A model generated the notes under the pieces. That model was not told the DNA's origin, did not search any database, and worked only from the letters and a program-made list of their open reading frames with translations. A stretch of DNA of 64,000 nucleotides, taken from NCBI RefSeq assembly GCF_001570565.1, contig NZ_BBXE01000029.1, forward strand, positions 1 to 64,000, written 5' to 3'. Source of the DNA: Herbidospora yilanensis (GTDB taxonomy: Bacteria > Actinomycetota > Actinomycetes > Streptosporangiales > Streptosporangiaceae). The translations under genes and the position numbers were made by a program. Positions 48,277 through 64,000 of this stretch are shown here, one piece after another. Position 1 is the first letter of the stretch. Each line of letters opens with the position of its first letter.

Positions 48277-48278
48277 GG

Positions 48279-49667
48279 TCAGTCCCTCGCCTGGGCGGTC
48301 ATCGTGACGACGTTGTTCCGGAACGGCTCGTAGTGCACGTCGAAGCCGCGACGGCGGCCGATGTGGGCCAGCAGGGGGCCGTTGACCCAGTTGACGACCG
48401 AGCCGTCGTACTTGCCGGGGCCGCGGAACATGGTGCGGTAGCCGTCGACGTCGGTGACGAACAGGTCGTGGCAGACCAGCCGGCCGTGCGGGTGGAGCAG
48501 GTGCAGGCTGTCGGTGAAACTGGCCACCGCGCCGTTGCTGACGTGCATGCGCACGTCCCGGCCCGACTCCAGCAGCGGGCGCAGCGCCTCCCCGTTGAAC
48601 CTCGGGGTCACCTGGTAGGCGTCGAGCCCGGCCAGCGGGACGTACCGCTCCTCCAGGCGCACCGCCGACCAGGCCCGCCGCCAGAACGCCACCGCCGCGT
48701 CGAGGTCGGGGAAGCGGCCGGGGTCGGCCTCGGCCAGCAGGCGCGGGCCGAGTTTGAGCAGGCGGCGCACCGGGGCCGGGTCCTCCCCGGCCGGCAGGTA
48801 GGCCCGTGTCTCCACCAGGTAGGTGCGGTCGCTGAGCTGGGCGACCTCGTCGGTCGGGAGGTTGTCGTACATGTTGGAGACGTAGACGAGGAAGACCTTG
48901 TACTTGAGGAAGCCCAGCGAGGTCAGCGGCCGGGTGGCGTCGAGGGCGACCGCGCTGACCCGGCCCGCGTGCTCGGCCACCGCCTGCCCGGCCAGATCGA
49001 GCACGTGCCGCGAGTAGTCGCACATGAGGTAGTGCAGCCGCCGGTAGTAGTCGCCGCCGCAGGCGCGGTCGGCGCGGCGGAACTCGTCGAGGAAGACCTT
49101 GGCCTGGTTGCCGTTGCCGACGCCCAGCTCCACCACCACCAGCTCGTCGGGCAGCGCGCCCGCGCGGGCCAGGTCGTCCCACGCGCCGAACAGGTCGAGG
49201 ATCAGGTCGCGGGCGGCGTCGCGGTCGCGGGCGTCGCTCTCGCCGCCGGGCAGCGCCTGCTCGTAGCCGCGCCCGGTCGACTTCTCCCACGCCTCCAGGG
49301 CGTTCCAGTAGAGGGCGTTGAAGTCCCACACGCAGCTCCGCGAGCCGGGACCCCAGTCCTCCAGGTAGGCGCGGCCCGCCGTGCCGTCGCGCAGCACCGC
49401 CTCGGCCCGTTCGCCCAGCGGCACGTCCCCGGCCCGCCGCACGTCGACCGCCAGCTCCAGCCCCTCCCGGCCGGGCGGCAGGATCGGCCGGGCGTCCACG
49501 GGCTCGCGGAAGTTCTCCCGGTACTGCACCCAGTCGCAGACCACCCGCACCCGCGCCAGGTCCCACGGCGAGCGCACCAGCGCGCCCACCACCGGCCCGA
49601 CGGAGGCGGTCAGGTCGACCGGGGCGGCGGCCCGCAACCGGGCGTGCGGCCTAAAGTCGATCAACAT
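48279..49667 (-). CDS. Large S-adenosylmethionine-dependent methyltransferase, unknown substrate
   Basis: A 462-residue protein with a class I SAM motif in the middle ([20 protein letters not shown], about residues 173-192), flanked by a 170-residue N-terminal region ([22 protein letters not shown]-type segment, Trp-rich) and a long C-terminal part. It recalls the MidA-like group but is not clearly one of the known small-molecule methyltransferases. It overlaps metF by 17 bases and is two bases from the MetE-like gene, so it is probably the consumer of SAM made by this operon. Confidence 0.8.
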
Positions 49668-50580
49668 CGGGATCGCCCTTCCTGATCTCGGCCCGGCGCA
49701 GCAGGTCGGGCACCTCGTCCTCGTGGCCGAACACCATGAGGTGCGCCCCCCTCACGCCGGGCGTCGCGGCCAGCTCGCGCAGCGTCTCCTCGCAGATGGC
49801 CAGGCCCTCCTCCTCGACGCGGCGTTCCGGCACCCCGCGCAGCCGCCGCGCCACCTCGTCGGGCACGTGCACGCCGGGCACCCCCGTGCTCAGGAACGCC
49901 AGCATGCGCAGCGACCGGATCGGCCCCACCCCGGCGAGCACCGCGCACCGTTCGGTCACGCCCTCGTCGCGGAGCATCGCGGTCCAGCGGGCGAAGGCGG
50001 GCAGGTCGAAGACGTACTGGGTCTGCGCGAACTCCGCGCCCGCCGCGGCCTTCTTCGCCAGCCGCCGCGCCCGCGCGGCCGTCGGCGGGGCGAAGGGGTT
50101 CTCCACCGTCCCGATCAGCCACGACGGCCGGCGGCCGAGCGGCCTGCCGGACAGCAGCACGCCCTCGTCCCGCATCCGGCGCGCCGTCCAGACGAGCTGC
50201 ACGCCGTCGAGGTCGAAGACCGGTTTCGCCTCCGGGTGGTCGCCGAGCGAGGGGTGGTCGCCGGTCAGCAGCAGCACGTTCGGGACCCCGAGCGCGGCGG
50301 CCCCGATCAGGTCCGACTGGAGCGCGATGCGGTTGCGGTCGCGGCAGGTGAGCTGCATGACGGGCTCCACGCCCGCCGCGCGCAGCAGCACGCTCGCGGC
50401 CAGGCTCGACATGCGCGCGTTCGCGCCCTGGTTGTCGGTGACGTTGGCGGCGTCCACCCAGCCGCGCAGCGCCTTCGCCCGGCGGGTGATCGCGTCGGGG
50501 TCGGCGTCGCGGGGCGGCCCCACCTCGGCGGTCACCACGAACCGCCCGCCGTCGGCGAGCGCGGCGCGCAGCCCGCTCAT
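49651..50580 (-). CDS. metF: 5,10-methylenetetrahydrofolate reductase
   Basis: A 309-residue MTHFR barrel (FVVTAEVGPPRDADPD at the start, NVTDNQGANARMSS, LTCRDRNRIALQSDLIGAAALGVPN, AEFAQTQYVFD). It produces methyl-THF, or runs in reverse when methyl groups are in excess. It lacks the NADH-binding add-ons and is directly coupled (one-base overlap) to the MetV-like zinc protein upstream, the pairing known for MetF-MetV complexes in acetogens. It is separate from any housekeeping metF I could identify. Confidence 0.93.
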   Translation of the reverse strand: MSGLRAALADGGRFVVTAEVGPPRDADPDAITRRAKALRGWVDAANVTDNQGANARMSSLAASVLLRAAGVEPVMQLTCRDRNRIALQSDLIGAAALGVPNVLLLTGDHPSLGDHPEAKPVFDLDGVQLVWTARRMRDEGVLLSGRPLGRRPSWLIGTVENPFAPPTAARARRLAKKAAAGAEFAQTQYVFDLPAFARWTAMLRDEGVTERCAVLAGVGPIRSLRMLAFLSTGVPGVHVPDEVARRLRGVPERRVEEEGLAICEETLRELAATPGVRGAHLMVFGHEDEVPDLLRRAEIRKGDPDVDRL

Positions 50581-51059
50581 CAGCCGTCGCCCAGGGCCGT
50601 CGTCAGGCCCTCGTCGCGGCCCTGCCAGTAGTTCAGCCAGGAGCTGCGGCTCCACTCGCGGTTGTCCGCCGGACGCTGGAGCAGGTCGAGGTCGCCGCCT
50701 CGGCCGGCCGAACCGGCCCGTTCGGCGGCCGTCACCCAGACGCAGCGCAGCGAGCGGTCGACCTCGCAGGAGCCGTCGGCCGACACACCGCCGCACGGCC
50801 CGTTGCGCAGTTGCTTGGGGCAGGTCATCGGGCACGCGTAGCCGGTCACGGGCAGCGCGCACTGGCCGCACATGCGGCAGCCGAACAGCCGTTCCTTCAC
50901 GGCCCGCTCGCCGGAGGTGAACCAGCGCGCCAGCCGGGGCCGGCCCTCCACGAAGGCGGCCAGCCGCCGGTAGAAGGGGTTGGGGGCCAGGCCGGCGTGC
51001 AGCGTGTACGCGAGCCGGGCCGAGATCCTCGGCCGGAAGGGCCTGGGCTCGTTGACCAT
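50580..51059 (-). CDS. MetV-like cysteine-rich MTHFR-associated protein
   Basis: A 159-residue protein with a dense cysteine block (FGCRMCGQCALPVTGYACP, then C-P-K-Q-L-R-N-G-P-C-GG, about residues 60-95) like the MTHFR C-terminal zinc/FeS domain PF12225 (MetV). MetV proteins partner with MetF and are rarely found outside anaerobic or C1-specialised bacteria. It is the first gene of the seven-gene methyl operon, and metF starts on its stop codon. The N-terminal 55 residues are Arg-rich without a known motif. Confidence 0.85.
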   Translation of the reverse strand: MVNEPRPFRPRISARLAYTLHAGLAPNPFYRRLAAFVEGRPRLARWFTSGERAVKERLFGCRMCGQCALPVTGYACPMTCPKQLRNGPCGGVSADGSCEVDRSLRCVWVTAAERAGSAGRGGDLDLLQRPADNREWSRSSWLNYWQGRDEGLTTALGDG

Positions 51060-51174: not shown

Positions 51175-51180
51175 GCGGCG

Positions 51181-52040
51181 TGCGCACTCTGGGATACGTC
51201 GGGGCGCAGTCGCCCAACGCCGCCGACTGGCTGGACGTCGGGCCGCGGATCTTCGGGTTCGAGGCGTACGAGACGGCCGGCACGGTCCGGGTGCGCTGGT
51301 GCGACCGCTCCCACCGGCTGGCGATCCACCCCGGCGGCCCCGACCGGCTGCTCTACCTGGGCTGGGACCTCGGCGACGACGCCTCACTGGCCGAGGCGGT
51401 GGCGCGGGTCGAGAGCGCCGGGTTCACCGTCGAACGGGGCGCCGCCGCGCTGGCGGCCGAGCGGTCGGTCCGGGAACTCGTCCACTTCGACGACACCTTC
51501 GGGCTGCGGCACGAACTGTTCGTCGGCCAGGAGGGGCGGCCCCAGCCCTACCGGGGGTCGCGGGCGGTGACCGGCGACCTCGGGCTCGGGTTCGTCGCCC
51601 TGCGGGTGCCCGACCTGCAGCGCGGGCTCGACTTCTACCGCGACGTCATGGGCATGCGGGTGTCCGACGCGATCAACCTCGGGCCGCGCCACGGTGAGAT
51701 GTGGTTCCTGCGCTGCAACCGGCGGCACCACAGCGTGGCCCTGCTGGAGGGCGGGGAGACGCTCCGGCTCGAACACCTCATGATCGAGACCGCGCTGATC
51801 GAGGAGGTCGAGAACGCCTGGGACCTGGCCGAACGCGAGATGGAGGCGTTCGTCAGCCCCGGCCGCCGCCTGTCGGACAACATGTTCCTGTTCCGGGTGG
51901 CCACCTCGACCGGGTTCGACGTCTGCTACGGCTGGGGCGCGACCCCGGTCGACGACGCGTGGATCCCGCGCTACCTCGACTCCTCCCGCACGGGCGGGCT
52001 CGTCTACTCGGCGGCGGCCGTGGTGACCGCGCGTCCCTAG
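51181..52040 (+). CDS. Extradiol-dioxygenase-like VOC protein with lost metal ligands
   Basis: A 286-residue two-module type I extradiol dioxygenase fold (BphC-like): N-terminal module about 1-125, C-terminal module from GLGFVALRVPDLQRGLDFY. In active enzymes the iron is held by His-His-Glu. Here the first His is F138 (GLGF), the second is kept (H199 in LEHLM) and the Glu is replaced by C249 (FDVCYGWG). The general-acid His pair H183-H184 remains. It may have a different metal, be inactive, or act as a binding protein. It faces both the methyl operon and the PucR-transport cluster. Confidence 0.82.
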
Positions 52041-53323
52041 CCCGGGATCTCCCCGAGGGTCTCCAGGATCTCCAGGGCGACCTGGGCGGCCAGCCGGTCG
52101 CGGTAGTTCTCCAGGTCCAGGCCGGTGATCTCCTCCACCCGCTTGATGCGGTAGGTGATGGTGTTGGGGTGGACGTGCAGCAGCTCGGCCGCCCGGCGCA
52201 GGCTGTTGTTCTCCTGGAAGTAGCACCTCAGCGTGCCGACGTACTTGGAGTGGCGTTCGCGCTCGTGGCGCAGCAGCGGGCCGAGGATGTCGGTGGCGAA
52301 CTCGCGCAGCGCCTCCGGGTCGGGCACCTGGAGCAGCAGGCGGCTGATGCCGAGCGAGTCGAAGGCCACCACCGCGCCGCGCCGGCCGAGCCGCCGGATC
52401 GCCTCGTTGGTGCGGCGGGCCTCCTCGTACGAGCGCGCGATGTGGCCGGGCTCGCGGAACCGGCCGCCGATGCCGACCGACACCGCGACGTCGGGGAACA
52501 GCGCGCCCAGCCGCTGCACGCAGACCGCGCCGACCTGCTCGGCCGGTTCCCGCATCACCACGACGACCTCGCCCGGCCGCACGACCGTGATGGCGTCGGG
52601 GGCCTGCGCGGTGAACAGGCGCGCGGTGGCCGCGCAGGCGTGCTCGGCCAGCAGCCGGGCCCGTTCCGACCCGCCGGGCGGCGGCTCGACCAGCACCGAC
52701 AGGACCCGGTGCTCGCGGTCGTCGTCGAAGCCCAGGTGGTGGGCCCAGCGCACGACCTCCTCGTTGTCGCGGGCCGAGCCCGACAGCAGGCCCTCCATCA
52801 GGTCGTCGCGCACCTGGCTGCCCGCCGTGGAGATGACGCGGTCGCGGGCCAGCACCACGCCGGAGATCGTGGCCGCGTGTTCGGCGATCATCAGGTGGAG
52901 CTCCTCGGCCTGGCCCGCCGGGTCGTCCATGAGCGAGACGAGGTAGGCGGGGGCGGTGTCGCCGATCAGGATCGGCGCCACGATCACGATCGAGCCCTTG
53001 GCCGGGCCGGGCACCCGCATCGCGCGCCGGGTCCGGCCCGCCATCGCCAGCGTGTGCGCCAGCCGGGGGTGGATGAGGTGGTCGTGGACGTACTGGACGG
53101 CGTCCGGGCCGCTCACGCCGGGGGAGGCGGCGGCCAGGATGCCGATCTTCTGGCTGATGACCGCGACGGTGACGCCGGTGCGGCGGGCGACGAGTTCGGC
53201 CACGGCGCCGATGTCGGCGTCCTGCATGGCCAGGCCGGACAGGTGGCGGTAGGTCTCGACCAGGTCGCGGAGGGTGCGGTTCTCCTGACTGATCTGGCCG
53301 ATGGGGGTGACGGGTTCGGCCAC
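52037..53323 (-). CDS. PucR-family transcriptional regulator
   Basis: A 428-residue PucR-type activator/repressor. N-terminal sensory domain (TVAVISQKIGILAAASPG), a GGDEF-like central part and the C-terminal PucR helix-turn-helix with the signature ELLHVHPNTITYRIKRVEEI. It is divergent from the ABC transporter operon and its stop overlaps the extradiol-like gene, so it probably controls uptake and catabolism of the transported compound. GAGGAAC precedes GTG 53323. Confidence 0.92.
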   Translation of the reverse strand: MAEPVTPIGQISQENRTLRDLVETYRHLSGLAMQDADIGAVAELVARRTGVTVAVISQKIGILAAASPGVSGPDAVQYVHDHLIHPRLAHTLAMAGRTRRAMRVPGPAKGSIVIVAPILIGDTAPAYLVSLMDDPAGQAEELHLMIAEHAATISGVVLARDRVISTAGSQVRDDLMEGLLSGSARDNEEVVRWAHHLGFDDDREHRVLSVLVEPPPGGSERARLLAEHACAATARLFTAQAPDAITVVRPGEVVVVMREPAEQVGAVCVQRLGALFPDVAVSVGIGGRFREPGHIARSYEEARRTNEAIRRLGRRGAVVAFDSLGISRLLLQVPDPEALREFATDILGPLLRHERERHSKYVGTLRCYFQENNSLRRAAELLHVHPNTITYRIKRVEEITGLDLENYRDRLAAQVALEILETLGEIPG

Positions 53324-53370
53324 GGCGGTTCCTCGGGTTTTCCATGTGCTGCGAACCAGAGAACCGTAGA

Positions 53371-53404
53371 GGTTCCTGGGGTGGAACCTGAAGTCCCCGG
53401 TTCC
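53371..53404. promoter_or_regulatory. GGTTCC/GGAACC operator-like cluster
   Basis: GGTTCC (53371-53376) and GGAACC (53383-53388) form a perfect 6-6-6 inverted repeat. A further GGTTCC lies at 53399-53404 and two AACC half-sites precede it (about 53354 and 53363). The cluster sits between pucR and the ABC operon, closer to pucR. Confidence 0.6.
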
Positions 53405-53492
53405 CCGGCGGGGCTATACACGCCTGATGACCTGGCGGAACGCCGGGCTTCGTAACACTCCCGACTCCGCCGATTTACGCCGTGGTAGCCCC

Positions 53493-53521
53493 TTGACGCG
53501 AACTTACCCGCAGGGCAGCAT
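53493..53521 (+). promoter_or_regulatory. Putative promoter of the ABC-transporter/catabolic operon
   Basis: TTGACG (53493-53498) and CAGCAT (53516-53521) are 17 bases apart. The transcription start would be near 53528. Confidence 0.5.
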
Positions 53522-53542
53522 GGCGTAACAAATATCAAACGT

Positions 53543-53563
53543 TTTGTCCAATTATCGGACAAA
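53543..53563. promoter_or_regulatory. Inverted repeat TTTGTCC-N7-GGACAAA downstream of the promoter
   Basis: Perfect seven-base arms (53543-53549 and 53557-53563) flank AATTATC. The site lies about 15 bases after the predicted transcription start, a position suited to repression. It is one of the few AT-rich stretches in the window. Confidence 0.65.
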
Positions 53564-53588
53564 GCCTGGTACGCGGCGGGAGGTGGCG

Positions 53589-54536
53589 GTGGGCATCCGC
53601 ATGATCATCCGTCGGCTCGGTGGCGGCCTGCTGGTCCTGTGGCTGGTGTCGATCCTCACGTTCCTGCTGGTCCACCTGATTCCGGGTGACCCGGCCGAGG
53701 CGGTCGCGGGTGAGAACGCGACCGCCGCGGACGTCGAGCGCATCCGCGCCGAACTCGGCCTGGACCGGCCCGTCCTGGAGCAGTACGTCACGTGGTTCAC
53801 GGGCGTGCTGCGCGGCGACCTCGGCCGCTCGCTCTTCACCGACAAGACGGTGGTCGACTCGATCGCCGGCAGTGCCCCGCCGACCCTCGTCATCACGCTG
53901 ATGGCGATCGTCGTCGCGGTGCTGGTGGGGGTGAGCGCCGGGATCGTGGCGGGGCTGACCCGGGGGAGCAGGGTCGACCGCGCGGTGTCCGCGCTGGCCA
54001 CGCTCGGCATCGCGATGCCGAGCTTCTGGCTGGCGATGGTGCTGGTGTCGGTGTTCTCGCTCACCAACCCCTGGCTCCCGGCCACCGGGTACGCCGAACT
54101 CTCCGAGGGCTTCGGCACCTGGTTGTCCCACATCGTGCTGCCGTCGACCGCGCTCGGCCTGGCCACCGCGGCCGAACTGGCCCGGCACACGCGCGGATGC
54201 GTGGCCGACGTGCTGACGCGGCCCTATATAAGGACGGCGCGCGCGAGGGGCGCCTCGGGCGGCTGGCTGGTGCGGCGGCACATCCTGCGCAACGCCGCCA
54301 TCCCCGTGGTGACCGTGCTCGGCCTGCAGGCCGGCCGGCTGCTCGGGGGCGCGATCGTCATCGAGGCCGTGTTCGGCATCTCCGGCCTCGGCACCCTGGC
54401 CGTCAACGCGGTGCTGCAGCGCAACTACCCGATCATCCAGGGATACGTGCTGCTCTGCGCCGTCGTCGTCGTCCTGCTCAACCTCATCGTCGACCTCGCC
54501 TACGGCTGGATCAACCCGAAGGTGCGCACGGCATGA
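53589..54536 (+). CDS. Dipeptide/oligopeptide-type ABC transporter permease (DppB family)
   Basis: A 315-residue membrane protein with six helices. N-terminus RLGGGLLVLWLVSILTFLLV and the EAA-type loop (RHTRGCVADVLTRPYIRTARARG) are typical of the DppB/OppB family. It forms the channel together with the next gene. GTG 53589 has GGGAGG five bases upstream; an ATG at 53601 is an alternative. The operon continues with overlapping stops through to 62883. Confidence 0.93.
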   Translation: MGIRMIIRRLGGGLLVLWLVSILTFLLVHLIPGDPAEAVAGENATAADVERIRAELGLDRPVLEQYVTWFTGVLRGDLGRSLFTDKTVVDSIAGSAPPTLVITLMAIVVAVLVGVSAGIVAGLTRGSRVDRAVSALATLGIAMPSFWLAMVLVSVFSLTNPWLPATGYAELSEGFGTWLSHIVLPSTALGLATAAELARHTRGCVADVLTRPYIRTARARGASGGWLVRRHILRNAAIPVVTVLGLQAGRLLGGAIVIEAVFGISGLGTLAVNAVLQRNYPIIQGYVLLCAVVVVLLNLIVDLAYGWINPKVRTA

Positions 54537-55426
54537 CCCTCGTCACCAGGCGCGCGAGCGCCCCCAAGATCCCCGGACCGGCCCGGACCTCCCCGGGCCG
54601 CAGGGTGCTGCGCGGTGTGCTGCGCCGCCCCGCCGTCGCCACGGCGGCCGGATTCCTGCTGCTGCTGATCGTGCTGGCGGTGGCCGGTCCGCTCATCTCC
54701 CCGCACGACCCCGACACGCAGGATCTCGGCAACCGCTTCGCCGGGCTGAGCTGGACCCACCTGCTCGGCACCGACGAGTTCGGCCGCGACGTCGCCAGCC
54801 GCGTCATCCAGGCCGCCCGCATCGCGCTGGCCGCGCCGCTCATCTCGGTGGGCGTGGCCGTGCTCATCGGGCTGCCGCTCGGATTGTGGGCGGGACTGCG
54901 CAAGGGCCTGGTCGACGCGGTCGCCGGTCGGCTGGCCGACACCGTGCTCAGCCTGCCCGCCATGGTGGGCGCGCTGGCCATCCTCGCGGTGCTCGGTCCC
55001 GGCCTGGTCAACGCGATGATCGCGATCGGCATCATCTTCGCGCCCGGCCTGTTCCGGGTGGTGCGCGGCGCGACGCTGGCGGTCGCGGAGGAGACGTTCG
55101 TCGACTCGGCGGTGGCGATCGGCTCGCCGACCCGGCGCACCCTGTGGGTGCACATCCTGCCCAACATCGCGGCCCCGCTGCTGGTCCAGGTGACCATCCT
55201 CATGGGCGTCGCGCTGCTGGCCGAGGCCAGCCTGAGCTTCATCGGGCTCGGCGTGCAGCCGCCGGAGGCGAGCTGGGGGTCGATGCTCAAGGCCGCCTAC
55301 ACCAACCAGTTCGACGCGCCCTTCTCGGTGGTTCCGCCCGGGGTCGCGATGGTCCTGACCGTGCTGGCCTTCAACACCATCGGTGACGCGATCCGCGACG
55401 CGGTCGGCCTGAGGAGGGGCAGATGA
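54533..55426 (+). CDS. Dipeptide/oligopeptide-type ABC transporter permease (DppC family)
   Basis: A 297-residue permease with the DppC N-terminal extension, LISPHDPDTQDLGNRF and GTDEFGRDVASRVI signatures and an EAA loop (EETFVDSAVAIGSPTRRTLW). It pairs with the DppB-type protein. It overlaps both neighbours by ATGA. Confidence 0.93.
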   Translation: MTLVTRRASAPKIPGPARTSPGRRVLRGVLRRPAVATAAGFLLLLIVLAVAGPLISPHDPDTQDLGNRFAGLSWTHLLGTDEFGRDVASRVIQAARIALAAPLISVGVAVLIGLPLGLWAGLRKGLVDAVAGRLADTVLSLPAMVGALAILAVLGPGLVNAMIAIGIIFAPGLFRVVRGATLAVAEETFVDSAVAIGSPTRRTLWVHILPNIAAPLLVQVTILMGVALLAEASLSFIGLGVQPPEASWGSMLKAAYTNQFDAPFSVVPPGVAMVLTVLAFNTIGDAIRDAVGLRRGR

Positions 55427-56394
55427 CGTTGTTGTCCGTGGAAGGGCTGACCATCGACCTGCCGGGCACGCAGCCCGGTCTCGTCGAGGACGTGACCTTC
55501 GAGGTGAACGAGGGCCGCTGCACCGCCCTCATCGGCGAGTCGGGCTGCGGCAAGTCGCTGACGTCGCTGGCCGTCCTCGGCCTGCTGCCGCCGTCGGTGC
55601 GGGTCTCGGCCGGCGCCGTCGTGTTCGACGGGGTCGACCTGCTCACCTGCTCCCCGCGCCAATTACGCAAGATCCGCGGCGGCCCGGTCGGCATGGTGTT
55701 CCAGGAGCCGATGAGCAGCCTCAACCCGAGCATGACCGTGGGCGACCAGATCGCCGAGGCCCGCCGCCTGCACCTGGGCGAAGGCCGCAAGGTCGCGCTC
55801 GCGCGGGCGAAGGACCTGCTCGACCGGGTCGGCATCCCCAACGCGGCCCGGCGGCTGGCGGCCTACCCCCACGAGATGAGCGGCGGCATGCAGCAGCGTG
55901 TCATGATCGCCGCGGCCATCGCCTGCGACCCCCGGCTGATCATCGCCGACGAGCCCACCACCGCGCTCGACGTCACCATCCAGGCCGAGATCCTCTCCCT
56001 GCTGCGCGACCTGCAGCGCGACCTCGGGCTCGCGGTGCTGCTGGTCACCCACGACCTGGGCGTGGTCGCCGACTTCTGCGACGACGTCGTGGTCATGTAC
56101 GCCGGCCACATCGCCGAACGCACCGGCGTCGACGACCTGTTCTACCGGCCCGCGCACCCCTACTCCGCCGCCCTGCTGGCCGCCGTGCCGCAGGCCGGGC
56201 AGTCGCGCTCCCGCCTGACGGTGATCCCGGGCCGGGTGCCCACGGCCGGGGCGTTCCCGCCGGGCTGCCGGTTCGGGCCACGCTGCGCCCACTTCACCGC
56301 GCCGGAGTGCGCGCGGCCGCAACCCCACGGGCGCACCCGCTGCGGCCGGGTCGCCTCGGGAGACCTGGTGCTGGAAGGGGCGCTCCATGGCTGA
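55423..56394 (+). CDS. ABC transporter ATP-binding protein (DppD/OppD family)
   Basis: A 323-residue ATPase: Walker [10 protein letters not shown]-loop [10 protein letters not shown], signature MSGGMQQR, Walker [13 protein letters not shown] and the C-terminal oligopeptide-transporter domain with conserved cysteines ([20 protein letters not shown]), which in relatives carries an Fe-S cluster or zinc. It powers uptake together with the DppF-type ATPase and overlaps it by eight bases. Confidence 0.95.
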
Positions 56395-57394
56395 CGACCG
56401 TGTCGTGCTGCGGGTCAGCGGGCTGACCAAGTCGTTCCCGGTACGCCGCGGCGCCTTCGGCCGCGCGCTGGAGAGCGTGCGCGCCGTCGACGGCGTGGAC
56501 CTGGAGGTGCGCGCCGGGACCACCGTCGGCATCGTCGGCGAGTCGGGCTCCGGCAAGACCACGGTCGGCCGCCTGATGGCCCGGCTGCTCACCCCCGACC
56601 GGGGCACCGTCGAGGTCGAGGGCCGCGACGTCAGCCGCGCCAGGGGCGCCGAGCTCAAGGCCGTGCGCGCCCGGCTGCAGGTGGTCTTCCAGGACCCGTA
56701 CGGCGCGCTCGACCCGACCAAGACGGTCGCGCACGCCGTCGCCGAACCGCTGCTGGTGCACGGCCGGATCAGGCGCGGCGAGATGCGCGAGCACGCCGCC
56801 GCGCTGCTGGCCCGGGTGGCGCTCGACCCCGCCTTCGCCGACCGCTACCCCGACGAGTTGTCCGGCGGCCAGCGGCAGCGGGTGTGCATCGCCCGCGCGC
56901 TGGCGTTGTCGCCGAGCGTGCTGGTGGCCGACGAGCCGACCTCCGCGCTCGACCTGTCGACCCGGTCGGAGATCCTCAACCTGCTGCTGTCCATCCAGGA
57001 GGAGACCGGCCAGGCGCTGGTGCTGGTCTCGCACGACTTCGCCACCGTCCGGCACCTGTCGCACCGGATCGCGGTCATGTACCTGGGGCGCATCGTGGAG
57101 GAGGGCCCCGCGGAGCGGATCGCGGAGAGCCCGCGCCATCCGTACACCGAGGCGCTGCTGTCGGCGGTGCCGCTGCCCGACCCGCGCGCCCAGCGCGCCC
57201 GCGAGCGCATCGAGCTGGGCGGTGACCTGCCCGACCCGGCCGACCCGCCCTCCGGGTGCCGTTTCCACACCCGCTGCCCGGTGGTGATGGACGTGTGCCG
57301 CACCGAGGACCCGGAGCTGCTGGCCGTGGAGCGGGGGCACCGGGTGGCCTGCCTGCGCCACCAGCCGGCCCCGGCGAAGGAGAAGGTGCGATGA
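56387..57394 (+). CDS. ABC transporter ATP-binding protein (DppF/OppF family)
   Basis: A 335-residue ATPase partner: Walker A GESGSGKT, Q-loop FQDPYGALDP, signature LSGGQRQR, Walker B VLVADEPTSALD and the C-terminal cysteine cluster (SGCRFHTRCPVVMDVCR). The full importer is the two permeases, two ATPases and the binding protein at 62996. It overlaps the CoA-transferase gene by ATGA, linking uptake and catabolism. Confidence 0.95.
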   Translation: MADDRVVLRVSGLTKSFPVRRGAFGRALESVRAVDGVDLEVRAGTTVGIVGESGSGKTTVGRLMARLLTPDRGTVEVEGRDVSRARGAELKAVRARLQVVFQDPYGALDPTKTVAHAVAEPLLVHGRIRRGEMREHAAALLARVALDPAFADRYPDELSGGQRQRVCIARALALSPSVLVADEPTSALDLSTRSEILNLLLSIQEETGQALVLVSHDFATVRHLSHRIAVMYLGRIVEEGPAERIAESPRHPYTEALLSAVPLPDPRAQRARERIELGGDLPDPADPPSGCRFHTRCPVVMDVCRTEDPELLAVERGHRVACLRHQPAPAKEKVR

Positions 57395-59493
57395 CCGTGC
57401 TCTCGGGGGTCAGGGTGGTCGACTTCGGCCATCACGTGGCCGGGCCGCTGCTGGCCCTGATGCTGGCCGACCAGGGCGCCGACGTCGTCCGGGTGGACCG
57501 TCCCGGCGTCGCGCCCGGCCGCCACGACGCCGTGCTCAACCGCGGCAAACGCCGCATCACGCTCGACCTGAAGCGCGACCTCGACACGGCCCTCGCGCTG
57601 GTGGCGCGGGCCGACGTGGTCGTGGAGAACTTCCGGCCGGGGGTGATGGACCGGCTCGGGCTGGGTGCGGCGCGGCTCCGGGCCGCCCACCCCCGGCTGG
57701 TCTACTGCTCGCTGCCGGGCTTCGCCGCCGCCGATCCCCGCGCGGGCCTGCCGGCCTGGGAGGGCGTCGTCGCGGCGGCCACCGGCAACTGCCGGGTCCG
57801 CGCCGGCTACCTGCCCGAGGGGCGGGACCCCGACAGCCCCGTGTACGCCGCCCTCCCGGTCGCCTCCAACTTCGCCGCCTTCTGCGGCGCCTTCGCCGTG
57901 GTGGCCGCGCTGACCGAACGGCACCGGACCGGGCGCGGCGACCGGATCGAGGTGCCGCTGTTCCACGCGATGTTCGAGGCCGTCGGCGGCTCCGGCGCCT
58001 ACCCGGTGGAGCGCGGCCTGCTGCCCGAGCGGGCCATCCGCGCCAACGGCAGCGGCACCTACCGCTGCGCCGACGGCCGCTGGGTGCAGTTCAACCCGAT
58101 CGGCGCGACCCCGCGCTTCCGCACCTGGTTCCTCGACGCCGCCGGAGCGCCGGAGGCCGACGACCTCACCGGGCTGTTCCTGACCAGGACCGCCCAGGAG
58201 TGGGAGGACCTCGCGCACGACGCCGGGGTGCCGCTCGCCATGGTGCGCACCGCGGCGGAGTGGCGGGAGAGCACGCACGCCCGGGAGTCGGGCGAGGTCG
58301 CGGTGGTCGACGACCCGCTGCTCGGCCCGACGGCGGTGCCCGGCCCCGCGGTGTGGTCGTCACGCGGCCCGGCGGCGCGACCACACCCGCGCAGCCTGCC
58401 GGACGGCGACCGCGCGGAGATCCTGGCCGAACTCGGCGCCGACGTCCCGGAGAGCACGCCCACCGGCGACCCCCGGCCGCCCTACGCGGGCCTGAACGTG
58501 CTCGATCTCACCCAGATCCTGGCCGGGCCGACCGCCGGGCGGGTGCTCGCGGAGTTCGGGGCCGAGGTCACCAAGGTCAACTCGCCGCAGCGGCGCGTCG
58601 GCGCGCACGGCTTCGTCAACCGGGGCAAGCGCACCGTGCTCCTGGACGTGAAGTCGGCCGCCGGGCAGCAGGTGCTCTGGAAGCTGATCGAGCGGGCCGA
58701 CGTGCTCACCCACAACTTCCCCGGCCGCACCGCCGAGAGCTACGGGCTCGGCTACCACCACGTGCGGGCCCGCCGCCCGGACATCGTCTACGTCTCGGTC
58801 GGCTGCTACGGCCGGGGCGGCCCCTGGTCGGAGCGCCGGGGCTACGAGACCCAGGGGCAGGCCGCCACCGGCATCATGGCGCTGACCGGCGGCGACGGCC
58901 CTCCGGCCGTGTTCGGGCCCTACAACGTGCTCGACTACGGCACCGGCCTGCTGGCGGCCTTCGCCGCCGCGCTCGGCCTCCACCACCGCGCCGTCACCGG
59001 CGAGGGGCAACACGTCCACGCCTCGCTCACCCAGACCGGCCTGCTCCAGCAGGCGGGCGTGCTCACCGCGAGCGAGCGGCAGCGCTACCACCGCGCCGCC
59101 GACGGATGGTTCTTCCTCGGCGTGCGCGACGACCGGCCGCCGCCCGTCGTCGACCCCGAGGAGACCGTCGAGGCCTGCGTGCGGAAGCTGGTCGCCGACG
59201 GCCACGGCGCGCACGCCGTCGTGCGGCTCGCCGACCTGATGACCGATCCGCTGCCCCGCTCGCTGGGGCTGACCGTCGCCCAGACCTCCGAAGAGGTCGG
59301 CGAGGTCGTGATGCCCGGCATCGCGATCACCGCCGAGGGCAACCCGCCCCGCCTGGGCGCGCCGGTCAGGCGGCCCGGCGCGGACGCCCGCGCCGTATTG
59401 GCCGATCTCGGGCTCGCCGCCGAGGCCGACACGCTGGCCGGGGCGTGGGCCGTGCAACTCGACCGCCTTCCCTCCGGCTGGGACCACTTCTGA
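57391..59493 (+). CDS. Tandem-domain CoA-transferase III (CaiB/BaiF), fused
   Basis: A 700-residue protein that is two complete family III CoA-transferase halves in one chain (about 1-360 and 365-700; each begins with VRVVDFGHHVAGPLLALMLA or LNVLDLTQILAGPTAGRVLA). Family enzymes swap CoA between carboxylic acids using a catalytic Asp in PxxD-x3-QA-x2-G; here the equivalent positions are Glu in both halves (E124 in PAWEGVVAAATG and E486 in GYETQGQAATG). Either the enzymes use Glu or the activity has changed. ATGA overlap with the transporter ATPase implies the imported acid is its substrate. Confidence 0.88.
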   Translation: MTVLSGVRVVDFGHHVAGPLLALMLADQGADVVRVDRPGVAPGRHDAVLNRGKRRITLDLKRDLDTALALVARADVVVENFRPGVMDRLGLGAARLRAAHPRLVYCSLPGFAAADPRAGLPAWEGVVAAATGNCRVRAGYLPEGRDPDSPVYAALPVASNFAAFCGAFAVVAALTERHRTGRGDRIEVPLFHAMFEAVGGSGAYPVERGLLPERAIRANGSGTYRCADGRWVQFNPIGATPRFRTWFLDAAGAPEADDLTGLFLTRTAQEWEDLAHDAGVPLAMVRTAAEWRESTHARESGEVAVVDDPLLGPTAVPGPAVWSSRGPAARPHPRSLPDGDRAEILAELGADVPESTPTGDPRPPYAGLNVLDLTQILAGPTAGRVLAEFGAEVTKVNSPQRRVGAHGFVNRGKRTVLLDVKSAAGQQVLWKLIERADVLTHNFPGRTAESYGLGYHHVRARRPDIVYVSVGCYGRGGPWSERRGYETQGQAATGIMALTGGDGPPAVFGPYNVLDYGTGLLAAFAAALGLHHRAVTGEGQHVHASLTQTGLLQQAGVLTASERQRYHRAADGWFFLGVRDDRPPPVVDPEETVEACVRKLVADGHGAHAVVRLADLMTDPLPRSLGLTVAQTSEEVGEVVMPGIAITAEGNPPRLGAPVRRPGADARAVLADLGLAAEADTLAGAWAVQLDRLPSGWDHF

Positions 59494-59501
59494 GGAGAAC
59501 G

Positions 59502-60722
59502 ATGGAGTACGACCTGCTGGTCCGGGGCCACGTCCTGGACCCGGGCCAGGGCCTCGACGGCCCCATGGACGTCGCCGTCACCGGCGGACGCGTCACCGCC
59601 GTGGCCCCGCGACTGGACGCCGCCCGCGCCCGCCGGGTGATCGACGCGACGGCCCCGGGCCGGCACGTCGTCCCGGGCCTGATCGACCTGCACACCCACG
59701 TCGCGCACGGCGCGATCACCCCCGGCGTCGGCATGGAGGGCTGCGACCCCGACGACATCGGGGTGCGGGCGGGCGTGACCACGGTCGTGGACGCCGGCTC
59801 GGTCGGCGTGGCCAACATCGGCGTCTTCGGCGCCTTCATCCAGCCCCGCGCCCGCACCCGCGTCGTGCCGTTCCTCAACGTCGGCAGCCACGCGCACACG
59901 ATGCCGAGCATGGTCGACGTCCACGACCTGGCCGAGATCGACCGCGCGGCCATCGCCCGCTGCGTCGCCGCCAACCCCGGGCTGGTCAGGGGCGTCAAGT
60001 TGCGGCTGGTCGGCCCGCTGGTGGCCGAACGCGGCAAGGAGGTCGTCGCCGCCGCCAAGGACGTGGCGCGCGAGCACGGCGTGCCGCTGATGGTGCACAT
60101 CGGCGACCTGTCGGCGCACCGGCGGCCCGAACCCGAACGCCTCACCCCGGTCACCCGCTTCGCCGTCGACCAGCTCGACCCCGGCGACATCCTCACCCAC
60201 CTGTGCACGCCCAACCCGGGCGGCGCCACCGACATGGACGCCGCCCTGATCGAGGCCCGCGAGCGCGGCGTGATCCTCGACGCCGCACTCGGCCGGGGCA
60301 ACTTCGGCCACCGCGTGGCCCGCGAGCAGCGCGAACGCGGCCTTCCGCCGGACACCGTCAGCAGCGACCTCACCCTCGCCGGGCAGGGTTTCCACTCGCT
60401 GGTCGAGTGCATGGCCAAGTTCCTGGCCGTCGGCTACGACCTCCCCGACGTCGTGCGCATGACGACGGCCAACGCCGCCCGCGCCCTCGGCATGGGCGAG
60501 GAGCTGGGCGCGATCGCCCCGGGCCGCGCGGCCGACCTGACCATCCTCGACGTCGTCGCGGGCGACTTCGCCTTCGTCGACACCGCCCGCGAGACCTTCC
60601 ACGGGACGCGGGCGCTGGCGCCCGTGCACACCGTCAAGGGCGGAGAACTGTTCGCCCCCGGCTGGGGCGCCCACCCGTGGGGCTGGTTGCCCGCCCGCCG
60701 CGGTCACGAGGTCGCGCCGTGA
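59502..60722 (+). CDS. Amidohydrolase/deacetylase-family metallohydrolase
   Basis: A 406-residue dihydroorotase-like amidohydrolase: the first metal pair in LIDLHTHV, a carboxylated-Lys region (VRGVKLRL), MVHIGD and TVSSDLTL. It is close to the EF_0837/AHA_3915 amidohydrolase/deacetylase family, linked to D-amino-acid or N-acyl substrates in other bacteria. GAGGAGAACG before the ATG is a clear binding site. In this operon it could open an amide or cyclic imide of the imported compound before or after CoA activation. Confidence 0.88.
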   Translation: MEYDLLVRGHVLDPGQGLDGPMDVAVTGGRVTAVAPRLDAARARRVIDATAPGRHVVPGLIDLHTHVAHGAITPGVGMEGCDPDDIGVRAGVTTVVDAGSVGVANIGVFGAFIQPRARTRVVPFLNVGSHAHTMPSMVDVHDLAEIDRAAIARCVAANPGLVRGVKLRLVGPLVAERGKEVVAAAKDVAREHGVPLMVHIGDLSAHRRPEPERLTPVTRFAVDQLDPGDILTHLCTPNPGGATDMDAALIEARERGVILDAALGRGNFGHRVAREQRERGLPPDTVSSDLTLAGQGFHSLVECMAKFLAVGYDLPDVVRMTTANAARALGMGEELGAIAPGRAADLTILDVVAGDFAFVDTARETFHGTRALAPVHTVKGGELFAPGWGAHPWGWLPARRGHEVAP

Positions 60723-61687
60723 GACGCGCCGACGCCTCCTGGGCCAGGACGCCCGAGGGCGTCACCCACCGCGACGTCACCGACGTGGCGATCGGGCCCG
60801 GCGACCAGGTCTTCCTGTTCACCCGCTTCGACCACCAGGTTCTCGTGTACGAACCCGACGGCGCCTTCGTGCGCGCGTGGGGCCGGGGGGTCTTCACGCT
60901 CCCGCACGCCCTGACCGTCGGCCCCGACGGCTCGGTCTACTGCGTCGACGCGGGCGACCACAGCGTGCGCCGCTTCACCCCCGAAGGCGAGCTGCTCCAG
61001 ACCATCGGCACCCCGGGCGAGCCCTCCGACACCGGCTACACCTCCGAGGGCCCCACCCGCGTCCACCGGGTCGAGCGGGTGCGCCGCCCGGCCGGGCCGT
61101 TCAACCGCTGCACCGACCTGGCCGTCGGCCCGGACGGCGACCTCTACGTCAGCGACGGCTACGGCAACTGCCGCGTCCACCGCTTCTCGCCGGACGGCGA
61201 ACTACGCCACTCCTGGGGCGCGGCCGGCACCGGGCCCGGCGAGTTCCACCTCCCGCACGGCCTCGACGTCACCCCCGACGGCCGGGTCCTGGTCGCCGAC
61301 CGGGAGAACGACCGCGTCCAGGTCTTCGACGCCGACGGCCGCTTCCTGACGGCCTGGACCGACGTCCGGCGGCCGTGCGCCCTGACCACCGCCCCGGACG
61401 GCGCCGTCTACGTCGCCGAACTCTGGCGGCCCAAGGGCACCCGCTCCTTCGTCCGCGGCGAGGCCGCCGAAGACCAGCCGGGACGGGTGACCGTGCTCGA
61501 CCCGGACGGCCGGGTGCTCGACCGGTGGGACGGCGCCGGCGAGTTCATCGCCCCGCACGGCATCGCGCGGGACTCGCGCGGCGACGTGTACGTCGCCGAG
61601 GTGACCTACAGCTTCGCCGTCCGGCCGGGTCTGGCCGACCCGTCGTGCGGCGGCCACCAACTCCAGAAATTCGAGGGGATCGGATGA
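60719..61687 (+). CDS. NHL-repeat beta-propeller protein, PAL-like
   Basis: A 322-residue six-bladed NHL propeller (blades typified by LTVGPDGSVYCVDAGDHSVRRF, LAVGPDGDLYVSDGYGNCRVHRF, LDVTPDGRVLVADRENDRVQVF). The PAGPFNRCTDLAVGPDGDLY segment is the motif of peptidyl-alpha-hydroxyglycine alpha-amidating lyase. There is no signal peptide, unlike eukaryotic PAL. It overlaps neighbours by four bases each. It may be a lyase for N-hydroxyalkyl amides or a scaffold protein. Confidence 0.8.
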   Translation: MRRADASWARTPEGVTHRDVTDVAIGPGDQVFLFTRFDHQVLVYEPDGAFVRAWGRGVFTLPHALTVGPDGSVYCVDAGDHSVRRFTPEGELLQTIGTPGEPSDTGYTSEGPTRVHRVERVRRPAGPFNRCTDLAVGPDGDLYVSDGYGNCRVHRFSPDGELRHSWGAAGTGPGEFHLPHGLDVTPDGRVLVADRENDRVQVFDADGRFLTAWTDVRRPCALTTAPDGAVYVAELWRPKGTRSFVRGEAAEDQPGRVTVLDPDGRVLDRWDGAGEFIAPHGIARDSRGDVYVAEVTYSFAVRPGLADPSCGGHQLQKFEGIG

Positions 61688-62883
61688 GACGCGACGACCG
61701 GCGGATTCTCACCACGCACGGCGGCAACCTGCCCCGCCCTGCCGACCTGGACACGCTCATCGCCGACGGGCGCCGGGAGGAGGTGCTGGCCCGGCTGCCC
61801 TCGGCGGTCGGCGAGGTCGTGGACCTCCAGATCGCCTGCGGCCTCGACACCGTCAACGACGGCGAGTACGTCAAGGCCGCCAACATGTCCGGCTACAGCG
61901 GCTACATCCACGCGCGGGTGACCGGCTGGGAGACCCTGCCGATCGACCCGGCCGTGCCGCCGAAGCGCGAGTACGTCGCCGCCCGCGACCGCGACGAGTT
62001 CCCCGGCACCTACGCCTCGGGCCTGTGGCTGGCCGGCTCCGGCGGCCCGGTCCGCCCGGGATTCTCCACCCCGGGCGCGGCCCCGAAGATGCCCGCCGTC
62101 GAGCGGGTCTGCACCGCGCCGATCACCTACGTCGGCCACGACGCCATCGCCGCCGACGTCGACGCCCTCAGGACGGCCCTCGTGGGCCGCGAGGCGGACG
62201 GCTTCGTCGCCGCGCTCGGCCCGCTCAGCCTCGGCGCGGGCGCGCGCAACGTGTTCTACGCGAGCGAGGAGGACTACATGTTCGCCGTCGCGGAGGCCCT
62301 CCGCGAGGAGTACAAGGCGATCACCGACGCCGGTCTGGTGCTCCAGATCGACGAACCCGAGTTCGCCACCACCTGGCAGTTCCACCCCACCTGGGACGTC
62401 GCCGACCTGCGGCGCTACCTGGAGTCCGCGGTCGAGGTGATCAACCACGCCATCGCCGGCCTGCCGCCGGAGCAGATCCGCATGCACACCTGTTGGGGCA
62501 GCGGCCACCGCCCGCACACCCAGGACATCGGCCTGCGCCACATCGCCGACCTGCTCGTGAAGGTCAACGCCTCGGCGTACGCGATCGAGGCGGGGAACGT
62601 CCGGCACGCCCACGAGTGGCGGGTGTGGGAGGACGTGAAGCTGCCCGACGGCAAGATCCTCATCCCCGGCGTGGTCAGCCACGCCACCGACCTGGTCGAA
62701 CACCCCGAGCTGGTGGCCGAGCGGCTGGTCAACTTCGCCTCGGTGGTCGGCCGGGAGAACCTGCACGCCGGCACCGACTGCGGGATCGGCTCGCGGGTCG
62801 GCCACGAGGAGATCGTCTGGGCGAAGCTGCGTGCTCTCGCCGACGGCGCGGCCATCGCCTCGGAGCGGCTGGCCGGCAAGTAG
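61684..62883 (+). CDS. MetE-like cobalamin-independent methyltransferase (MetE II family)
   Basis: A 399-residue methionine-synthase-II-family barrel. It starts ILTTHGGNLPRP, the mark of this family, and keeps the zinc ligands H-x-C in RMHTCWGSGH, a Cys in GTDCGIG and a Glu strand (LQIDEPEFA). Members catalyse thiol-dependent methyl or alkyl transfers, including epoxyalkane:CoM transferase, and methionine synthesis. Being last in the transport/CoA operon, it may take a methyl group from the imported compound. The rare second MetE-like gene sits in the opposite operon at 47251. Confidence 0.88.
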   Translation: MRRDDRRILTTHGGNLPRPADLDTLIADGRREEVLARLPSAVGEVVDLQIACGLDTVNDGEYVKAANMSGYSGYIHARVTGWETLPIDPAVPPKREYVAARDRDEFPGTYASGLWLAGSGGPVRPGFSTPGAAPKMPAVERVCTAPITYVGHDAIAADVDALRTALVGREADGFVAALGPLSLGAGARNVFYASEEDYMFAVAEALREEYKAITDAGLVLQIDEPEFATTWQFHPTWDVADLRRYLESAVEVINHAIAGLPPEQIRMHTCWGSGHRPHTQDIGLRHIADLLVKVNASAYAIEAGNVRHAHEWRVWEDVKLPDGKILIPGVVSHATDLVEHPELVAERLVNFASVVGRENLHAGTDCGIGSRVGHEEIVWAKLRALADGAAIASERLAGK

Positions 62884-62887
62884 ACGT

Positions 62888-62907
62888 CCGGCGGGCCCGC
62901 CCGCCGG
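62888..62907 (+). terminator. Hairpin between the catabolic operon and the binding-protein gene
   Basis: CCGGCGGGC (62888-62896) pairs perfectly with GCCCGCCGG (62899-62907). The loop is minimal so the stem probably opens to eight base pairs. It follows the stop by four bases and is trailed by an A-rich stretch. It may be a processing or attenuation site that lets the lipoprotein be made in different amount. Confidence 0.5.
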
Positions 62908-62995
62908 CCGAGAAAAGACAAGCAAGCGGATCCGTGCCGACGCGTCGGGGACGAGCCGGAAGCACCGCGACATCCGAAAGATGGAGGCAAGGGCC

Positions 62996-64000
62996 GTGAA
63001 ACGAACATCAGTCACATCGGCCGGTGCGATCCTCGCCATCGTGCTCGTCCTCACCGCCTGCGGCGGCACGGACGCGAACGGCGGCGGGAACGCCCAGGGG
63101 ACCTCGGCGGGATTCGACCGGAACGCCGTCCTGCGGTGGGCCGTGCCGGGCATGCCGACCTCCTTCGACCCCCGCAAGTCGGCCCCGCTCGACCCGGTCT
63201 TCCTGGACGTCGTCTACGAGAGCCTGGTCAACCGCACCCCGGCCGGGGAACTCGTGCCGGGCCTGGCCACCGAGTGGAAACTGGGCGACGACAACACCAC
63301 GATCACCTTCACGCTGCGTCCCGGCGTGAAGTTCCACAACGGCGAGGCGTTCGACGGGGCGGCCGTGAAGGCCAACCTGGAGGCCTTCAAGAAGGAGGGC
63401 GCGCTCGCGGGCACACTCGCCGGCCTCGACAAGGTCGACGTGCTCGCCCCCGACCAGGTCAGGCTCACCTTCGCCGAGCCGTCGGGCTACATGATCAACG
63501 TGCTGGCCGGAGAGGCCGGCATCGTGGTCGCGCCGAGCGCGCTCGGCGACCCGGGCCTGACCGGCAAGCCGGTCGGCACCGGCCCGTTCCAGCTCGACGT
63601 CCTCGGCGAGGGCAAGGTCACCTTCAAACGGTTCGACGGCTACTGGGACGCGGGCCGCATCACCCTCGGCGGCATCGAGATGGCCGTCTACTCCGACGAG
63701 TCGACGCGGCTGCGCGCCGTCAAGTCGGGCCAGGCCGACGGCACGTCCATCACCCCGAGCCAGATCAAGGAGTCGGAGGCGGCCGGCCTGACCGTCATCA
63801 AGGGCGCCAACACCACGTTCAACGGCATCCTGATCAACACCAGCTCGGGCAAGCTCACCGACCCCAAGGTGCGCGAGGCGATGCTGTACGCCATCGACCG
63901 CGCCTCCATCAGCAAGAACCTCTACGCCGGGGTGTGCACACCCGCCGTGCAGCCGCTCCAGCAGGGCTTCTGGGCGAACGTGCCCGAGCTGAACGACGTC
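62996..64000 (+). CDS. Solute-binding lipoprotein of dipeptide-type ABC transporter (3' end beyond window)
   Basis: At least 335 residues of a family 5 extracellular solute-binding protein, still open at the window edge. A lipoprotein signal ends L19-T-A-C22. The mature part has the family start (LRWAVPGMPTSFDPRKS, YESLVNRTPAGELVPGLATEW). It is the binding component for the importer encoded at 53589-57394. GTG 62996 has GGAGG eight bases upstream; ATG 62981 is an alternative. The true stop cannot be given. Confidence 0.93.
   Translation, partial: MKRTSVTSAGAILAIVLVLTACGGTDANGGGNAQGTSAGFDRNAVLRWAVPGMPTSFDPRKSAPLDPVFLDVVYESLVNRTPAGELVPGLATEWKLGDDNTTITFTLRPGVKFHNGEAFDGAAVKANLEAFKKEGALAGTLAGLDKVDVLAPDQVRLTFAEPSGYMINVLAGEAGIVVAPSALGDPGLTGKPVGTGPFQLDVLGEGKVTFKRFDGYWDAGRITLGGIEMAVYSDESTRLRAVKSGQADGTSITPSQIKESEAAGLTVIKGANTTFNGILINTSSGKLTDPKVREAMLYAIDRASISKNLYAGVCTPAVQPLQQGFWANVPELNDV

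Follow-up and report, generated by a model that had tools for sequence, protein, structure and literature searches.

The stretch of DNA considered here (the window) comprises the first 64,000 nucleotides of contig NZ_BBXE01000029.1 of Herbidospora yilanensis (assembly GCF_001570565.1), a member of the Streptosporangiaceae. Its right-hand end carries a block of genes for a Dpp-type ATP-binding cassette (ABC) importer, a fused double class III CoA-transferase (CaiB2), an amidohydrolase-superfamily metal hydrolase (AmiH), an NHL propeller resembling the lyase PAL and a MetE-like zinc methyltransferase, the last of which is the marker of the system (Table 1). A PucR-family regulator is encoded divergently. 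The block adjoins an S-adenosylmethionine (SAM)-cycle operon on the minus strand (44128-51059), in which PurU and MetK exceed their family cut-offs and the methylenetetrahydrofolate reductase (MTHFR) and DUF5981 proteins are recognized by Pfam. Each gene named in a preliminary description, made from the sequence of this DNA, was found where it had been placed, as was the neighbouring operon. That a conserved uptake and degradation block of soil bacteria appears to act with a methyl-group cycle of its own points to a so far undescribed route by which a methylated compound is handled. The genes at the locus are not a chance neighbourhood, and the block, the larger island to which it belongs and the SAM and one-carbon (C1) module very probably constitute one real system.

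Table 1. Features of the catabolic block and the adjoining SAM-cycle operon in the window
Feature	Position	Strand	Basis
PfkB-family kinase (putative adenosine kinase role)	44128..45123	-	PF00294; NCBIfam ribokinase-type models all below cut-off
PurU, formyltetrahydrofolate deformylase	45138..45986	-	TIGR00655 349.5 bits, cut-off 285.95
MetK, second, dedicated S-adenosylmethionine synthetase	46028..47254	-	TIGR01034 over cut-off; another MetK on contig C28
Core-MetE type methionine synthase, no N-terminal half	47251..48276	-	PRK04326 261 bits, below cut-off 406; alignment
MTase462, orphan SAM-dependent methyltransferase, 462 aa	48279..49667	-	No Pfam/NCBIfam family; fold model
MetF-like methylenetetrahydrofolate reductase	49651..50580	-	PF02219 115.6 bits; NCBIfam models below cut-off
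MetV-like partner (DUF5981)	50580..51059	-	PF12225 (scanned as 50580-51200)
BphC/HsaC-like extradiol dioxygenase	51180..52040	+	TIGR03213 180 bits, below cut-off; part of conserved block
PucR-family regulator, divergent	52037..53323	-	PF13556 and PF17853 (HTH_30, GGDEF_2)
Candidate operator, inverted repeat TTTGTCC-N7-GGACAAA	53543..53563	.	Pattern search
ABC permease, DppB type	53583..54536	+	PF00528; conserved
ABC permease, DppC type	54533..55426	+	PF00528, PF12911
ABC ATPase, DppD type	55423..56394	+	PF00005, PF08352
ABC ATPase, DppF type	56387..57394	+	PF00005, PF08352
CaiB2, fused double class III CoA-transferase, 700 aa	57391..59493	+	Two PF02515 (CoA_transf_3) stretches
AmiH, cog3964/PRK09237-like amidohydrolase-superfamily metal hydrolase	59502..60722	+	321 bits, cut-off 371; PDB relatives
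PAL-like NHL propeller	60719..61687	+	H63, H180, H280, Y148, R195 invariant in 13/13; 3fvz match
MetE-like zinc methyltransferase, marker of the system	61684..62883	+	PF01717; predicted fold of MetE catalytic half (model)
Substrate-binding lipoprotein, family 5	62981..64000, continuing to contig position 64540	+	PF00496; conserved behind MetE-like gene

The transport and enzyme genes had been described as joined by overlapping stop and start codons. This holds for five 4-base ATGA/GTGA overlaps (at 54533, 55423, 57391, 60719 and 61684) and one 8-base overlap (at 56387), but not for the junction of CaiB2 with the amidohydrolase gene, where there is an 8-base gap. The TTG start listed for dppB at 53544 falls within the candidate operator, and the GTG at 53583 is the likelier start codon.

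Conservation of the block was followed in 200 genomes sampled from the host family (the family genomes), with the MetE-like gene counted at 1e-40. It is present in 30 of these: seven, including the window genome, encode a protein of at least 83% identity, six one of 67-71%, and the others one of at most 50%. Six other genomes of the same genus among those listed have no MetE-like gene at this threshold. Twenty loci around MetE-like genes were read (six close, six intermediate and eight distant), with partners sought by tblastn at 1e-15. The order dioxygenase, PucR, DppBCDF, CaiB2, AmiH, NHL propeller, MetE-like, binding protein and SDR is kept in all six other genomes with a MetE-like protein of at least 83% identity, across which the proteins of the block are 64-90% identical. 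The propeller, MetE-like and AmiH genes remain together at all six loci of 67-71% identity, and the propeller, AmiH and CaiB2 appear at none of the eight loci of at most 50% identity in the stretch read. The preliminary description had proposed a catabolic system with its own importer whose genes should be co-conserved in relatives, and this synteny supports it. A scan of named genomes retained 80 of 203 loci, some from genomes also present in the family sample, so that the two sets overlap. These come from Acrocarpospora, Nonomuraea, Microbispora, Phytohabitans, Micromonospora, Pseudonocardia, Desertimonas, sphingomonads, Chloroflexota and others. The propeller gene lies directly upstream in 37 and the amidohydrolase gene is adjacent in 25 of the 56 named loci whose MetE-like protein reaches about 59% identity or more; neither arrangement occurs at the 24 more distant named loci.

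The block is not the whole of the conserved region. Between 51180 and contig position 85163, almost all called genes have counterparts of 68-91% identity in Acrocarpospora pleiomorpha; for the HpcH/HpaI aldolase none was found in this comparison. Leftward of 51180 the collinearity with A. pleiomorpha breaks off, leaving just a few weak, scattered matches. The collinear region, which starts at 51180 and reaches contig position 85163 or beyond, thus defines an island of about 34 kb whose left third is the block, and the preliminary description had covered about one third of it. The remainder encodes an SDR, two PF04909 proteins, a DUF6282 protein, the HpcH/HpaI aldolase, CoA-transferase subunits, HsaD-like hydrolases, two CoA ligases, aldehyde and alcohol dehydrogenases, a flavin monooxygenase and an acyl-CoA dehydrogenase, names that rest mostly on below-cut-off or domain-level matches and in some cases on reading the sequence. 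A cupin-like protein, which has no Pfam match, was named in the latter way.

A perfect inverted repeat (TTTGTCC-AATTATC-GGACAAA) is located upstream of dppB, where 0.01 such sites are expected per window at two or fewer mismatches. Its core lies at the same place in the six other blocks (7/7 with the window genome). A genome-wide search of these seven genomes, allowing up to two mismatches and with the reversed pattern as control, recovered the block promoter in all seven and only three further sites in total, while the control gave none. The further sites in G027 and G079 each precede the VOC-hydrolase genes of the island, and that in G146 is found on another contig (L252:6922-8310), before an apparent second binding-protein gene named by reading. 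The window genome has a form with three mismatches before its VOC gene. From the shared operator-like sequence, the two ends of the island would seem to belong to a single regulon, and PucR may be the protein that binds it.

The best PDB sequence matches of the binding lipoprotein are AgaA and YliB. The transporter subunits are of generic Opp/Dpp/Nik types, and all NCBIfam transporter matches shown are below cut-off, for which reason nickel, heme or opine uptake was dropped. Generic subunits are also what ordinary dipeptide or metal-chelate uptake beside miscellaneous hydrolases would present. This explanation is most improbable, as the same below-cut-off matches count against it and a form of the same operator precedes the VOC-hydrolase-monooxygenase genes.

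Class III (CaiB/FRC) CoA-transferases employ a catalytic Asp, which is found in neither half of CaiB2. The second half has a Glu opposite the Asp of the formyl-CoA transferase FRC (10uh) and the first half a Glu at the matching motif; both residues, E124 and E486, are invariant in 9/9 orthologs. The double-domain layout is presumably like that of DddD, a double CoA-transferase with a catalytic Asp that cleaves dimethylsulfoniopropionate (DMSP). The score of the amidohydrolase against PRK09237 falls short of the cut-off for the cog3964 amidohydrolases. Its closest PDB relatives are 8wzy, 2ogj and 2ics, and the characterized member of the family that it resembles is an acetyl-mandelate esterase. 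The hydroxyglycine-lyase-like character given to the propeller in the preliminary description is retained for its middle part, where PAL (3fvz) scores 75.6 bits in a single stretch; in the two other alignments shown, no stretch of Thin exceeds 35 bits and none of TRIM71 exceeds 44. Over the whole sequence, however, the summed scores of these two NHL proteins exceed that of PAL. The spacing of the five invariant residues is PAL-like, and they may correspond to the three metal-binding His, the catalytic Tyr and the Arg of PAL.

The MetE-like protein has 399 amino acids, matches only the C-terminal part of PF01717 (Meth_synt_2) and stays below the NCBIfam cut-offs. It lacks the N-terminal, methyl-tetrahydrofolate-binding half of the canonical tandem-repeat MetE, and the fold of its structure model (pLDDT 74.8) is predicted to match the MetE catalytic half. 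The zinc site, composed of H268, C270, E302 and C366 (His-x-Cys, Glu, Cys), is invariant in 13/13 sequences and aligns with that of core-MetE, as do the DGE and DEP motifs. Within the MetE superfamily, homocysteine is bound by an (I/V)GS motif. The residues GGN of the MetE-like protein align with VGS of core-MetE, suggesting that the thiol may differ from homocysteine. An alternative reading takes the protein for a thiol transferase comparable to epoxyalkane:coenzyme M transferase, whose zinc-bound thiol attacks an electrophilic carbon, and not for a demethylase. The shared fold and zinc site and the altered pocket motif are compatible with this, but the common travel of MetK, AhcY, MetF, FolD and PurU would be left unexplained, and the proposal is considered improbable.

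Several genomes hold many MetE-like genes and one MTase462 gene (8:1 in G116; 5:1 in G105, G171, G167, G153 and G185), which fits substrate-specific demethylases feeding one shared cycle. Four MetE-family genes, two of them named by reading, stand side by side on a Chloroflexi contig (L116:14-4729). A Dehalococcoidia locus (L137:6377-12310) has three MetE-like genes interspersed with a thiamine pyrophosphate (TPP)-type enzyme and followed by Rieske-type oxygenase genes, all names by reading.

The order MetV-MetF-MTase462-core-MetE-MetK of the operon recurs in other genomes; in Pseudonocardia and Micromonospora, AhcY, PurU, PfkB and FolD are also encoded in the corresponding operons. The set found with the methyltransferase thus includes the SAM-regeneration proteins MetK, AhcY, MTHFR and core-MetE, the last below its cut-off, and a kinase placed only in the PfkB family. 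As the window genome encodes another MetK and a full MetH elsewhere, the operon MetK is supernumerary and core-MetE is only one of its methionine synthases. Two AhcY genes lie in tandem in the same genome (C13:491212-493865). MTase462 itself matches no family in Pfam or NCBIfam. Its conserved motif I (ELGVGNG) and its AlphaFold model (mean pLDDT 81.7), whose nearest folds are the MidA/COG1565 methyltransferases (TMq ~0.43), point to a class I SAM-dependent methyltransferase.

MTase462 is present in 35 of the 200 family genomes, including 12 of the 13 with a MetE-like protein of at least 67% identity. It occurs in 22/30 family genomes with a MetE-like gene against 13/170 without (Fisher p=4e-14) and, by genus, in 9/12 against 9/56 (p=1.4e-4); these tests ignore shared descent, and in the genus count g15 is entered as positive for both genes, which occur there in separate species. 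The named genomes give a similar picture (25 genomes reached through 26 loci chosen from the 80, L117 and L106 being the same genome and counted once): 12 of 13 with a MetE-like protein of at least 61% identity have MTase462, against one of 12 at 47% or less. Close linkage is not enough to account for the co-occurrence of MTase462 and the MetE-like gene, since A. pleiomorpha and A. macrocephala carry the two on separate contigs. By this distribution, the SAM-cycle operon is linked to the catabolic block, in keeping with the preliminary description. The separate contigs in these two species, together with the 13 family genomes that have MTase462 and no MetE-like gene, would suit two independent systems, an aromatic or acid catabolic island and an ordinary spare SAM-cycle operon, which are neighbours by chance. 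Such an accident is very unlikely in view of the co-occurrence across the family genomes, across named genomes in two phyla and in alphaproteobacteria with a dissimilar methyltransferase-like protein. PurU genes beside distant MetE-like genes in Rothia, Kocuria and Curtobacterium were left uncounted, as their neighbours look like housekeeping genes and MTase462 is absent there.

The alphaproteobacterial methyltransferase-like protein, MTase15, is carried near the MetE-like gene at sphingomonad loci and belongs to another family, without a Pfam or NCBIfam model. It is called a methyltransferase on the basis of a SAM-type glycine-rich motif read by eye, and direct comparison of MTase462 with one MTase15 member detected no similarity. 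MTase15 was found in all 20 alphaproteobacterial genomes reached from another 22 loci chosen from the 80. Among 149 genomes of one sphingomonad family it occurs in 7/39 with a MetE-like gene at 1e-40 and in 0/110 without (p=5e-5); at 1e-80, a cut chosen after the scores had been seen, the counts are 4/4 and 3/145. One Sphingomonas holds within about 58 kb a MetE-like gene, core-MetE, FolD, PurU, an MTHFR-domain protein, AhcY, MetK, two MTase15 genes and a PfkB-like kinase, along with a propeller, PF04909-type hydrolases, a cupin-like protein and an HpcH/HpaI-like protein (FolD, AhcY and MTHFR were confirmed by models, the others by BLAST or reading). In another sphingomonad, MetE-like (36%), core-MetE (35%) and MTase15 genes are contiguous. 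A similar functional set around a different methyltransferase argues for one pathway.

The best explanation, tentative and somewhat short of an even chance, is a regulated catabolic island in which a methylated substrate is demethylated independently of cobalamin by the MetE-like zinc enzyme together with the SAM cycle. The Dpp-type importer would take up an organic acid, to be activated or degraded by CaiB2, the metal hydrolase and the PAL-like propeller, and subsequently by the dioxygenase, monooxygenase, hydrolases, aldolase and CoA ligases. The MetE-like enzyme would pass the substrate methyl group to a thiol bound by zinc, homocysteine being the simplest candidate, and so yield the demethylated substrate and methionine. 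A catabolic flux of this type needs its homocysteine back and the methyl group oxidized, which would give roles to MetK, the methyltransferase, AhcY and the kinase on the one hand and to MTHFR, FolD and PurU on the other. The dedicated MetK would convert methionine to SAM, and MTase462 would convert SAM to S-adenosylhomocysteine (SAH), with a folate as the putative acceptor. To our knowledge, no enzyme is known for methyl transfer from SAM to tetrahydrofolate. AhcY would then split SAH into homocysteine and adenosine, the latter presumably being removed by the PfkB-family kinase, and methyl-tetrahydrofolate would be oxidized to formate through MetF/MetV, FolD and PurU. The analysis itself established the gene content, the synteny, the shared operator-like site, the co-occurrence of the MetE-like gene with the methyltransferase module and the conserved zinc site; the first step of the scheme and the direction of methyl flow are inferred.

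The substrate is probably a methylated aromatic compound. The ring-cleavage-type genes hint at a methoxylated one, as the island encodes an extradiol-type dioxygenase, a flavin monooxygenase, hydrolases and an HpcH/HpaI aldolase reminiscent of aromatic catabolism. At eight sphingomonad loci the MetE-like gene is followed at short distance by an extradiol-type dioxygenase gene, with a MarR-like regulator in between at L078. The presence of such a dioxygenase, there and in the window block, would follow from O-demethylation of a guaiacyl ring to a catechol, and a guaiacyl-type substrate class may be envisaged. The methylated amide put forward in the preliminary description is not borne out, as no evidence points to an amide and the island enzymes look more like aromatic catabolism. 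Steroid ring degradation was rejected, since the scores of the HsaC-like dioxygenase and the HsaD-like hydrolase are far under the cut-offs. Methylated purines, which would suit PucR and the PAL-like lyase chemistry but not the aromatic-type enzymes, were dropped as well.

A number of observations weigh against demethylation through the SAM cycle. The pocket motif of the MetE-like enzyme is replaced, the SAM route costs ATP, and the scheme assigns core-MetE no role beside the cycle. AhcY and FolD are missing from the window operon, with AhcY encoded twice elsewhere in the genome. The seven full-block genomes have one MetE-like gene each, 1:1 with MTase462, so the argument from paralogs rests on other genomes. 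Nonomuraea fuscirosea and G126 (77% complete) have a MetE-like gene and no MTase462 match, MTase462 occurs in the 13 family genomes noted above, 32 of the 39 sphingomonad genomes with a MetE-like gene at 1e-40 lack MTase15, and MTase15 of G233 stands among housekeeping-looking genes. At four of the seven MTase462 loci read in genomes without a MetE-like gene (L172, L173, L176 and L180), MTase462 lies beside a PucR relative and a homocysteine-methyltransferase/MTHFR-type fusion; the family model was run on one of the four and exceeded the PRK08645 cut-off. This homocysteine S-methyltransferase fusion is perhaps a stand-in for the MetE-like enzyme. Lastly, in oestrogen degraders the same gene set serves methylation (PMC7448270).

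A wider form of the proposal extends cobalamin-free demethylation across Actinomycetota, Chloroflexota and Alphaproteobacteria, with families of substrate-specific MetE-like enzymes passing methyl groups from natural methoxy- or N-methyl compounds to homocysteine and the two unrelated orphan families acting as SAM:tetrahydrofolate methyltransferases that feed folate oxidation. In this breadth it is unlikely. If demethylation is correct, the MetE-like family, which at present takes its name from methionine synthase, would gain a function, as would two methyltransferase-like families that match nothing in Pfam or NCBIfam. It would also show how methyl groups could be removed by aerobic soil bacteria that use neither oxygenases nor vitamin B12 for the purpose; methoxy groups from lignin and humus are an obvious candidate source. 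Even with the methyl group moving in the opposite direction, the locus would add a further case of a pathway equipped with a SAM supply of its own.

No paper on this gene system was found in a literature search that was partly narrow and had most subscription journals outside it. Among known systems, the tetrahydrofolate-linked demethylations (the chloromethane cmu operons, LigM/DesA and dicamba demethylase) share with the present one the MetF, FolD and PurU route of methyl oxidation. They differ in using GcvT-like or corrinoid methyltransferases, with no need for a SAM cycle. In the main text of the dicamba demethylase paper, metF and purU are both absent. PAL, the lyase half of the peptidylglycine alpha-amidating enzyme, gives the top single-stretch match to the propeller among the stretches seen and a matching His/Tyr/Arg spacing, whereas the propeller here is bacterial, stand-alone and paired with a MetE-like gene. 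Epoxyalkane:coenzyme M transferase is a MetE-family zinc enzyme used in catabolism, and the difference here lies in the partners, which are SAM-cycle and folate genes.

The core-MetE of Dehalococcoides is likewise a single MetE catalytic half with a zinc site, and uses methylcobalamin; the marker here is a divergent MetE-like protein of about 400 amino acids, below the NCBIfam cut-offs (PMC7005905). Methyltransferases that join the demethylation of betaine or DMSP to methionine synthesis are described in two further papers (PMC12478193, PMC12366255). Taken with the methylcobalamin-dependent core-MetE, they indicate that methionine chemistry and demethylation can be coupled.

The nearest parallel is the anaerobic oestrogen degrader Denitratisoma. 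There, SAM for methylating the substrate is regenerated by the products of genes near emtABCD (AhcY, adenosine kinase, MTHFR, methionine synthase and MetK), and these proteins are more abundant on oestradiol (PMC7448270). This likeness makes catabolic methylation a serious alternative, if a rather unlikely one: the operon would regenerate SAM, MTase462 (MTase15 in sphingomonads) would methylate the degradation substrate or an intermediate, and the MetE-like enzyme would recycle the methyl group or act elsewhere. However, PurU, which with FolD is additional to the Denitratisoma set, dissipates C1 units rather than supplying them, the MetE-like genes are often multiplied where MTase462 is single, and the methyltransferase is often unlinked to the catabolic block. 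PurU and the MetE-like expansion tilt the balance towards demethylation. No corrinoid gene was noticed in the operons read, in which no search was aimed at one. The two systems are alike in that AhcY, MTHFR, MetK, a methionine synthase and a kinase, here a putative adenosine kinase, accompany a methyltransferase and genes of catabolism. They differ in that Denitratisoma relies on a cobalamin-dependent methyltransferase and methionine synthase, while the present system has core-MetE, PurU, FolD, MetE-like paralogs and an orphan methyltransferase.

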